Of a DNA stretch of 64,000 bases, positions 61,198 to 63,814 are shown one piece after another. The stretch lies in assembly GCA_022072025.1 (NCBI GenBank), contig JAJVIP010000020.1, forward strand, positions 1 through 64,000, read 5' to 3'. The translations under genes were made by a program, and so were the position numbers. The notes under the pieces were generated by a model, which saw only the letters and a list, made by a program, of their open reading frames with translations, did no database searches and had not been told where the DNA came from. The stretch comes from Elusimicrobiota bacterium. Its GTDB lineage: Bacteria; Elusimicrobiota; Elusimicrobia; F11. Position 1 is the stretch's first letter; every line of letters begins with the position of its first letter.

Positions 61198-62088
61198 ATG
61201 TTGAAATGGTTTTTGGGGCAATTCAGGGCCCTGCGTTTTGCTTTGGTGGGGGGTGAATTTTTACCTCGTCTTACCGAAGCGATTAGACGAGTCAGCCAAG
61301 GTCATCTGGATGTTGAATTGCCCATCCCCAAATCCAAGGAGTGGGCGGACTTGGCACGTTCTTTTAATCAAATGGTTGAAGGTCTCCAAGAACGGGACCG
61401 GATGCGTCATTCATTGGGACGGATCATGGACCCCAAAATTGCCGAGATATTGATCAAAGAAAGTCCCACCGTGGGGGGGCGTCAACGGCAAGCCACCATC
61501 CTCTTTTGTGATATTCGAAATTACACCACGCTGTGCGAACAGTTATCTGCCGATGAACTTCAAGAATTTCTCAATGAATACTGGAAGGAAACCGTGGAAA
61601 TCATCATGGAACAGGAAGGAACCATTGATAAATTTCATGGAGATGGGGTGTGTGTCGTCTTCGGCGCGCCGGTCCTTCATGTCGATGACGCGCTCCGGGC
61701 CGTGAGAACAGCCTGGCGATTGGTACAGAATGGGGAACTCCTCAACAAACGTCGAACCGAGCAGCGCAAAATTCCCATTCAGATCGGGGTGGGAATCCAC
61801 ACGGGCGAGGTGATCGCAGGGCATATCGGGTCTGAGCGCCGCATGGATTACACAGTGGTGGGGGACGCGGTCAATGTGGCGGCGCGTATTGAAGAATTAA
61901 ACAAGAAATTCGGAACCAAAATTTTAATCAGCGACAATGTCTATGAAAAAGTCGAAAACCATGTACGGGTGAAAACCCTAACGCTCGCCCATTTGCGCGG
62001 TCATAAAAGACCCATTCTGATTCATACCGTCAGAGAATTCTTCGAAGTGCCGGAAATCGAAATAAACCCCCACGAAAAAGCGGCTTAG
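61198..62088 (+). CDS. Class III adenylate cyclase with HAMP-like domain, no membrane helices
   Basis: The 296 residues have a HAMP-like segment (about 20-70, including RRVSQGHLDVELP and DLARSFNQMVEGLQ) followed by a cyclase catalytic domain (about 95-275). Metal-binding D105 in LFCDIRNYT and D149 in KFHGDG are present, K145 suits adenine recognition, and VVGDAVNVAARIE holds the transition-state Asn and Arg. HAMP normally follows a transmembrane helix, but only a weak N-terminal hydrophobic patch (WFLGQFRALRFALVGG) is seen. No clear Shine-Dalgarno or -10 is evident. Convergent with rho, the stop codons abutting. Confidence 0.88.
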   Translation: MLKWFLGQFRALRFALVGGEFLPRLTEAIRRVSQGHLDVELPIPKSKEWADLARSFNQMVEGLQERDRMRHSLGRIMDPKIAEILIKESPTVGGRQRQATILFCDIRNYTTLCEQLSADELQEFLNEYWKETVEIIMEQEGTIDKFHGDGVCVVFGAPVLHVDDALRAVRTAWRLVQNGELLNKRRTEQRKIPIQIGVGIHTGEVIAGHIGSERRMDYTVVGDAVNVAARIEELNKKFGTKILISDNVYEKVENHVRVKTLTLAHLRGHKRPILIHTVREFFEVPEIEINPHEKAA

Positions 62089-63171
62089 TTACTGGAGGGA
62101 GGCGACGATGGCTTCGTTGGTGGGGTACTTTCGGAGAAGTTCGGTGAGCGCTTGAGCGGATTCCACTTCGCTCATGCTGGCCAGAGCGGCGCGCAGAGTG
62201 CGGCTCGCTTTGAGTTCTTCAGGGGTAAAGAGTTTTTCTTCTTTGCGGGTGCCCGACTCGCGGATGTTGAGGGCCGGGAAAATACGGCGGTCGGACACTT
62301 CTCGCGATAAAACCAGCTCCATGTTTCCGGTGCCTTTAAATTCCTGAAAGATCACGTCGTCCATGCGACTGCCGGTTTGTACGAGAATGGTGGCCAAAAT
62401 ACCAATGGACCCTGAAAATTCAATGTTGCGGGCCGTGCCGAAAATTTTTCGCGGGATAATGAGCCCCTGGGCGTCGACGCCGCCTGAGAGAGTTCGGCCA
62501 TGACCCCGGACGGCGCTGTTATGAACCCGCGCCAAACGGGTCAGTGAGTCAATGAGGATCATGACATGTTTGCCTTCGGCGGCATGCTCAATGGCATCCT
62601 TCATTAACTGTTTGGCCACCGCGATGTGGTTCTCATAGGGTTGGTCCGAAGTGGACCAACGGACTTCAGCGGTTACGCTGCGGCGGAAATCGGTGACTTC
62701 TTCAGGGCGTTCGTCAATGAGCAAAACATAGACCTTCATTTCGGGTTCGGCCCCTGTGATGGCTTGGCAAATGTGTTTTAAAAACGTTGTTTTGCCTGAT
62801 TTGGGGGGAGACACAATCAAACCTCTTTGTCCTTTGCCAATGGGACAAAGCAGATCCATGGCGCGGATGGTGGGCTCGGAAAGTCCTTTGGTCAGGTGAA
62901 TTCTGGGGGCCGGATCAATTGATGTCCCAGAAAAAAACTTTACCTCCGCCGGTGATTCAACTTCTTTTTGAGGGGGCCGTTGGAACCGGGGGCGGTCAAA
63001 ACGCTGTTGTCCGCCATTGTTGTTATGATGGTGGCGGTGTCCGTTGTTGGGCCCTCGATTGGGCATGCCACGACCCGAAGGTCCTTGTCCAGGGCCTCGG
63101 TTGGGACGGTTGTGATGAGGGTTTGGCGCACCACGCCGTTGATCTTTGTTCTGCCAGGTTCGGTTTTGCAT
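62089..63171 (-). CDS. rho: Transcription termination factor Rho lacking the N-terminal OB fold
   Basis: Rho is a hexameric RNA translocase that ends transcription. The ATPase domain is complete (about residues 75-360): Walker A SPPKSGKTT (121-129), LLIDERPEEVTDFRR, Walker B VMILIDSLTRLAR, the Q-loop area GRTLSGGVDAQGL, and FKGTGNMEL plus SGTRKEE. The protein has only 360 residues against about 420 in E. coli, because the Rho_N helices and the cold-shock-like primary RNA-binding domain are absent. In their place is a disordered region of about 75 residues rich in Asn, Gly, Arg, Pro and His. The frame cannot extend far upstream because another gene ends at 63212. Confidence 0.93.
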   Translation of the reverse strand: MQNRTWQNKDQRRGAPNPHHNRPNRGPGQGPSGRGMPNRGPNNGHRHHHNNNGGQQRFDRPRFQRPPQKEVESPAEVKFFSGTSIDPAPRIHLTKGLSEPTIRAMDLLCPIGKGQRGLIVSPPKSGKTTFLKHICQAITGAEPEMKVYVLLIDERPEEVTDFRRSVTAEVRWSTSDQPYENHIAVAKQLMKDAIEHAAEGKHVMILIDSLTRLARVHNSAVRGHGRTLSGGVDAQGLIIPRKIFGTARNIEFSGSIGILATILVQTGSRMDDVIFQEFKGTGNMELVLSREVSDRRIFPALNIRESGTRKEEKLFTPEELKASRTLRAALASMSEVESAQALTELLRKYPTNEAIVASLQ

Positions 63172-63211: not shown

Positions 63212-63814
63212 TTATGGCTTTGTCACCAATTTCTTTGGCGCAAGGTGATCCAGGCGAAGCAAAATGACAATTCCCAGTCCCAAGAAAAATAAGAAGAAGC
63301 CCAACGTAACCACCAATGTTTGTTTGATATTACCGGCACTTTGAGGAATCAAAAGAATCTCCACAGAGGGGCCCTCTACTCCGCCAGAATAGACGCCACT
63401 GATGGTGTAGGCTCCCGCTCGAGCGATGGCGAAATTGAACAAGGGCATTCCTTGAAAGCCCATTCGGTTGAACGTTTGGCCCCCGCTGTTCATGAGCACA
63501 GGAATCTCTTCATAGTCCTCTTTCGATAGGACACGAACGTCCAACTGGGTCAGGGCTTTAATGGGGATTTCCTTGGTACTCCGATGGCGATAAACGCCGG
63601 CATAAAGACCGGGGGTTTCAAGCTGGACTTCTTGAAAGCCTGGCAGCTGAAGGGTTTTCATGCGGCCTCCGCCCGTCAGGCCTTCATATAAACCGACCCC
63701 CAACACCACAAAAGAAACCACTATCGCGGTGATTCCACAGGTCATAAGAAATCCACGTTGAAGGAAAAAAGGAGTGGAATTTTTGTTTTTGATTTTTATT
63801 TCAGTGTTCCACAT
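63212..63814 (-). CDS. Two-helix membrane protein with extracytoplasmic domain, unknown
   Basis: The 200 residues have a membrane helix near residues 25-46, a soluble extracytoplasmic domain of about 115 residues that looks beta-rich (GFQEVQLETPGLYAGVYRH, AGAYTISGVYSGG), and a second helix near 167-187 with a basic tail. The middle part resembles galectin-like or jelly-roll domains in pattern only. GGGAG seven bases before the ATG supports the start. It lies between the aldo/keto reductase and rho. No function is assigned. Confidence 0.75.
   Translation of the reverse strand: MWNTEIKIKNKNSTPFFLQRGFLMTCGITAIVVSFVVLGVGLYEGLTGGGRMKTLQLPGFQEVQLETPGLYAGVYRHRSTKEIPIKALTQLDVRVLSKEDYEEIPVLMNSGGQTFNRMGFQGMPLFNFAIARAGAYTISGVYSGGVEGPSVEILLIPQSAGNIKQTLVVTLGFFLFFLGLGIVILLRLDHLAPKKLVTKP

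Follow-up and report, generated by a model that had tools for sequence, protein, structure and literature searches.

The gene rho2, at 62089..63171 on the minus strand of the window (the whole 64,000-nucleotide stretch of DNA that was analysed), encodes a paralogous second Rho that has an intact ATPase ring part and lacks the primary RNA-binding domain, and it belongs to an OB-less Rho subfamily maintained by selection, a reading to which we assign a probability of about 95%. The primary RNA-binding site is regarded as the part that loads and licenses Rho, and a conserved, intact motor that does without it, carried beside an ordinary Rho in three phyla, provides natural material on what the bare motor is able to do. 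It also raises the question of which jobs besides termination a Rho-like ATPase may have, a question made testable by the culturable carriers Marinobacter, Halomonas, Colwellia and Gilvimarinus. No description of an OB-less Rho paralog was found in the open-access literature, an earlier mention in subscription-journal surveys of Rho evolution being possible, and the family is apparently undescribed. Annotation is affected as well, as OB-less Rhos carry the ordinary name, plain "transcription termination factor Rho", in public databases (e.g., WP_163836858.1, from a Spartinivicinus plasmid).

The protein is 360 aa long (ATG start; the stop codon is included in the coordinates above). Residues 74-360 (62092..62952, minus strand, as are all parts of the gene given below) form the Rho ATPase/translocase domain, which was delimited by profiles, alignment, AlphaFold2 pLDDT and fold matches. 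The Walker A motif PPKSGKT (residues 122-128, 62788..62808) contains K127, the equivalent of E. coli K184; the catalytic glutamate E154 and the Arg valve R155 (E. coli E211 and R212) are encoded at 62707..62712, the Walker B pair D208-S209 (D265-S266) at 62545..62550, and the Arg finger R309 (R366) at 62245..62247. The Q-loop region, which belongs to the secondary RNA-binding site, extends over residues 219-235 (62467..62517) with R226 at the position of E. coli K283, and the R-loop region over residues 265-271 (62359..62379) with R269 at that of K326. Most of this domain is modelled with pLDDT above 90, and the best 50 PDB fold matches of the model are all Rho. Profiles, alignment to solved structures and fold thus all agree with the sequence-only reading of this DNA, which had described the ATPase ring part as complete.

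Residues 1-73 (62953..63171) constitute an N-terminal tail that stands in place of Rho_N and the OB (cold-shock-like) fold. About 75 disordered residues rich in N, G, R, P and H had been noticed here, and the figure is close to the 73 defined by composition and low pLDDT: 78% of the tail is N/G/R/P/H/Q, its net charge is +10, and only 10% is hydrophobic, a composition that lies beyond all 303 windows of the same length taken from neighbouring genes. AlphaFold2 pLDDT is about 40-45 for residues 1-60, and the tail is predicted to be disordered. The absence of both N-terminal domains from the gene, also stated earlier, was confirmed by a profile search, which detected neither a Pfam Rho_N nor an OB fold in the protein and in which the Pfam and NCBIfam matches are confined to the ATPase part (approximately residues 76-358). 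Furthermore, a tblastn search with the Rho_N/OB region of the genome's own Rho found its control and no homology, either across the 64-kb window or in the surroundings of related genes (20 neighbourhoods), so a split gene whose OB fold is encoded by an adjacent frame was rejected. The Rho proteins of Thermus, E. coli, M. tuberculosis and Thermotoga begin to align with the window protein at residue 78-94. The open frame upstream of the start continues for 17 further residues to a stop and contains no earlier ATG, GTG or TTG.

The inference that the Rho of this organism had lost its primary RNA-binding domain did not survive inspection of the whole genome. Because an ordinary full-length rho, with Rho_N and OB fold, is present on contig 2 (C2:386275 onward, beside coaE), the window gene is not the organism's sole Rho. 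The ordinary protein is 517 aa long with all domains present, is the one protein with a Rho OB-fold domain in the entire assembly (43 contigs, completeness 100), and shares 49% identity with the window protein over the ATPase domain. Inspection of close relatives revealed that the OB-less architecture recurs, with close homologues in about 50 of the 295 Elusimicrobiota genomes sampled, all of them in the class of the window genome. At a cut-off of 1e-95, picked to keep ordinary Rho out of the counts, OB-less Rhos were present in 34 of 145 sampled Omnitrophota genomes and in 13 of 116 genomes from the order of Marinobacter orientalis; when 229 genomes were drawn from its class, only the centre genome carried one. 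When a stretch specific to the clade was used to scan 84,980 species genomes, the same architecture was recovered in Omnitrophota and Gammaproteobacteria among the matches listed, the gammaproteobacterial carriers among them being Marinobacter, Gilvimarinus, Colwellia, Paraglaciecola, Halomonas, Marinomonas, Amphritea, Endozoicomonas and others. OB-less Rho therefore occurs in at least three phyla and about 100 genomes, and its range may be wider. Queried with the OB fold of ordinary Rho, phmmer picked up the ordinary and other OB-bearing proteins but no short Rho, and exactly one OB-bearing (ordinary) Rho was counted in 40 of 41 carrier genomes checked, the exception being an incomplete MAG.

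In the maximum-likelihood tree of the ATPase domain, the short Rhos form one clade of 31 rows (ultrafast bootstrap 97, SH-aLRT 96) that includes the window protein and from which the ordinary Rhos of the hosts are separate (98/94). Forcing short and ordinary Rhos together lowers the log-likelihood by 202 units for the Elusimicrobiota (AU test, p 1e-73) and by 141 units for the Gammaproteobacteria (p 8e-67). Both a recent origin of the short form by domain loss in the rho of its host and a series of repeated recent losses in resident genes are thereby ruled out, and the clade is old. The gammaproteobacterial branch is nested within the diversity of Omnitrophota and Elusimicrobiota, which suggests that the short Rhos of the Gammaproteobacteria go back to horizontal transfer. 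A single clade of all Elusimicrobiota short Rhos was borderline rejected (p 0.045), a result open to either of two explanations, transfer with Omnitrophota or binning mix-ups. Among OB-bearing proteins, the one closest to the clade in the tree is the second Rho of a Calditrichota genome (L144), which has no Rho_N and has kept the OB fold; its placement, on a long branch, as sister of the OB-less clade is tentative but suggests a stepwise trimming of Rho.

The subfamily is under purifying selection, with dN/dS between 0.01 and 0.14 in close pairs of Elusimicrobiota short Rhos, pairs with the window gene being saturated at synonymous sites. All 54 short Rhos compared carry the equivalents of E. 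coli K184, E211, R212, D265, S266, R269, K336, R353 and R366 without variation. The Q-loop retains its GG, the position of K283 is still basic, and the equivalent of K326 is K or R save in two gammaproteobacterial members, where it is Q. The clade is marked by R where E. coli Rho has K at position 298; the equivalent of the Walker A residue K181 is Gly in the short Rhos of Omnitrophota, Gammaproteobacteria and some Elusimicrobiota. Of 19 Elusimicrobiota members, 12 have a Q-loop shortened by one residue. Judged from this conservation, OB-less Rho is a maintained and probably active motor.

In the window, rho2 lies downstream of a gene for a 200-aa protein with no Pfam match (63212..63814, minus strand), which ends 40 bp before the rho2 start, and faces a convergent gene for a protein with HAMP and adenylate/guanylate cyclase domains (61198..62088, plus strand). 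The stop codons of the latter pair abut with zero intergenic space (62088 on the plus strand, 62089 on the minus strand), and thus their transcripts should overlap. None of the neighbours of rho2 in the window is an RNA gene. In G252, an independent MAG from the same family, the order of genes around rho2 is identical, with the 200-aa protein gene again next to it, which makes an assembly error that removed the 5' part of the gene, a possibility left open by the sequence-only reading, very unlikely.

RNA metabolism is a neighbourhood theme in some lineages, with no single link that is general. In the Elusimicrobiota family f7, an RNase E/G gene is located 1.7-2.8 kb upstream of rho2 on the same strand at all nine loci examined, within the string pbp2-rodA-rng-ami-murI-rho2-ridA-like, and six or seven of the nine RNase E/G proteins (e.g., L040 5165-7132) have an N-terminal tail with arginine runs or RGG that is similar to that of the nearby Rho2. 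Outside f7, RNase E/G was found near rho2 at none of 11 loci, and the linkage therefore represents one evolutionary event. A convergent DEAD-box helicase gene adjoins rho2 in six gammaproteobacterial loci, and an ABC-F-like ATPase or a pseudouridine synthase gene does so in some Omnitrophota. A neighbourhood conserved across the whole family was not found, the contexts being lineage-specific and none common across phyla. Six Omnitrophota rho2 loci (L077 10458-10700, L074, L078, L079, L082 and L093) contain a gene for a conserved 81-aa protein with no Pfam match, in most of them directly downstream of rho2.

Copies of rho without the OB fold also exist on mobile and viral DNA. Spartinivicinus ruber carries an OB-less Rho of the short clade (L206 7001-7960; NZ_CP048880.1 54176-55135) on its 102-kb circular plasmid pB, where the gene is surrounded by phage genes (holins, terminase, capsid); pB is apparently a phage-plasmid, and the same stretch is found in the IMG/VR contig IMGVR_UViG_2909979649_000009. 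A 132-kb IMG/VR viral contig (L209 7539-8411) encodes a 290-aa OB-less Rho that groups with ordinary Rho, outside the short clade, and therefore looks like a separate, independent loss of the N-terminal domains in a virus. A phage or plasmid origin as a general rule is unsupported, as it has in its favour one copy on a phage-like plasmid and the matching viral contig only.

The N-terminal domain of ordinary Rho provides the primary RNA site and contacts with RNA polymerase (PMC8828861). OB-less Rho has no primary site and no domain with which to contact RNA polymerase or to sense C-rich rut sites, and therefore should not be a rut-dependent terminator of the classical kind. What it would be instead, at roughly even odds and judged from the motifs kept and lost, is a rut-independent RNA translocase that loads by way of its pore and of a tail or partner. 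To this end, the protein would assemble into a ring, most likely a homohexamer, and would bind single-stranded RNA solely through the central pore, by means of the Q- and R-loops, while the basic tail or a partner would keep it near RNA; ATP would then be used to move along the RNA or to remodel it. We infer that in the cell it would more likely act on RNA that is free or has been exposed beforehand, as in mRNA turnover, at RNA:DNA hybrids or in RNP remodelling, and not on elongation complexes in the classical manner. Features that speak against this reading are the Gly at the K181 equivalent and the shortened Q-loop of many members, the seeming near-absence of a tail in some, and the lineage-specific neighbourhoods, with no RNA gene beside rho2 in the window. 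E. coli Rho mutants in the primary site do not activate the motor and lose RNA-activated ATPase and helicase activity (PMC12203952). According to work cited in PMC5449661, the ring of E. coli Rho can close on pore-bound RNA by itself if that RNA is U-rich, and occupancy of the primary site aids ring closure on poor RNA.

The idea that RNA recognition relies on the tail or on partners holds as a possibility, but the tail is not required, since several members seem to have one of only about 10-16 residues. The apparent length is 16 aa in L008, 10 aa in L014 and about 15 aa in L116 and L121; these lengths are approximate, as start codons were chosen by a script and some are wrong, and strong Shine-Dalgarno sequences precede the short start in many OB-less Rho genes. 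Because some members seem almost tailless, the tail cannot be the general answer to RNA loading. Its sequence is not conserved between OB-less Rhos, being N/G/R/P/H-rich in the window protein, rich in RGG and arginine runs in family f7, and H/R/P/S-rich in Omnitrophota, and the common property is basic charge, with a positive net charge in most members (median +7 in Elusimicrobiota, +6 in Omnitrophota and +3 in Gammaproteobacteria). The gammaproteobacterial short Rhos (e.g., L080, L087 and L118) begin with a conserved MTRKTLSLKxKR followed by a variable linker. The Rho of M. tuberculosis has a comparable N-terminal stretch, rich in Arg, Asp, Asn and Gly, that binds RNA in the absence of the OB fold (PMC4167861), and by analogy a role of the basic tail as an RNA tether is plausible.

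The chief rival to a translocase is that the OB-less protein mixes into the rings of canonical Rho, which would then have fewer primary RNA sites, so that termination would be retuned or dampened in an antitermination-like manner. The cis and trans residues of the ATPase pocket are all kept, which makes mixed interfaces conceivable, and one copy is located among phage genes on the Spartinivicinus plasmid, phages being known to act on Rho in at least the case of Psu of phage P4, an inhibitor of Rho (PMC11718236). The co-occurrence with ordinary Rho in 40 of 41 carrier genomes points the same way, but is weak evidence because most bacteria have an ordinary Rho in any case. However, poisoning alone would not need the whole catalytic set that is conserved, identity to the host's Rho is about 49% with many clade-specific positions, and E. 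coli primary-site mutants were reported to be non-dominant (PMC12203952); hence subunit mixing appears possible but rather improbable. A specialised terminator, in which NusG or another partner would bring the ATPase domain to RNA polymerase, bypassing rut, for a particular set of transcripts, is likewise an unlikely reading. It draws on the kept pore and ATPase residues, on the presence of a Rho-NusG KOW complex (6duq) among the matched structures, and on the potentiation of Rho by NusG at suboptimal rut sites (PMC5449661), but the N-terminal domain with its contacts to RNA polymerase (PMC8828861) is absent.

The translocase reading has a broader form, in which ancient, horizontally spread Rho motors without a primary site would be general RNA translocases in RNA turnover, acting in family f7 together with the RNase E/G whose tail is similarly arginine-rich, perhaps with both in one RNA-rich condensate; in this full form it is doubtful. 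Rho belongs to the same superfamily as the F1 and FliI/SctN ATPases, which appear as weak matches of the window protein, and a non-RNA substrate, e.g., as part of a secretion-type or DNA-translocating ATPase, might be considered on this basis, but Rho is the best match by far (359 bits, while the top type III ATPase model reaches 81) and the RNA-pore motifs are kept, making such a role very improbable. Finally, a decaying pseudogene, frameshift or assembly artefact that cost an ordinary rho its 5' part, for which the missing domain is the sole argument, is refuted by the recurrence of the architecture, within one clade, in about 100 genomes from three phyla, the strong Shine-Dalgarno sequences before the short start of many members, the low dN/dS, the invariant catalytic residues and the same arrangement in MAG G252.

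Compared with ordinary Rho (TIGR00767; E. coli Rho, PDB 1pv4, 3ice and 5jji), the window protein shares the ATPase domain (46% identity in the structural alignment) including Walker A and B, catalytic Glu, Arg valve, Arg finger, Q-loop and R-loop, and differs in having neither Rho_N nor the OB fold (PF07497) and in being an extra copy beside an ordinary Rho. It scores 338.8 bits with TIGR00767, under the curated cut-off of 509, and 358.9 bits with the broader model NF006886, above the cut-off of 315. The short form described by NF041509, "paralog_Rho2", is also named by NCBI as a Rho paralog and has a total length similar to the 360 aa of the window protein. However, the NF041509 model spans the OB fold, aligning to residues 153-494 of the genome's ordinary Rho, whereas the window protein has no OB fold and reaches 301 bits against a cut-off of 628, over profile positions 78-358 only (the ATPase part), so that its assignment to paralog_Rho2 is ruled out.

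The second Rhos of Verrucomicrobiota, Rhodothermota/Bacteroidota and Calditrichota (L144 and others) are likewise extra copies without Rho_N, but unlike the window protein they retain the OB fold, and all eight genomes checked with such a second Rho have two OB-bearing Rhos. Several genomes of Verrucomicrobiota, Rhodothermota/Bacteroidota, Nitrospirota and Calditrichota have a pair of OB-bearing Rhos in which one partner is often short or divergent, and Rho paralogy seems to be common and little described.

The Rho proteins of M. tuberculosis and Bacteroides thetaiotaomicron resemble the window protein in their disordered, low-complexity N-terminal sequence, which in B. thetaiotaomicron drives condensates (PMC13269538). 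The window protein does not fall in this class of IDR-bearing, phase-separating Rho, as disorder is predicted and yet the OB fold is absent. The earlier remark that disordered inserts of other Rhos come in addition to the OB fold and do not replace it does not hold generally, since in the whole OB-less clade a tail, or almost nothing, takes its place. In M. tuberculosis and B. thetaiotaomicron the primary binding site is complete and the IDR comes on top of it, whereas in the window protein the tail stands in place of that site.
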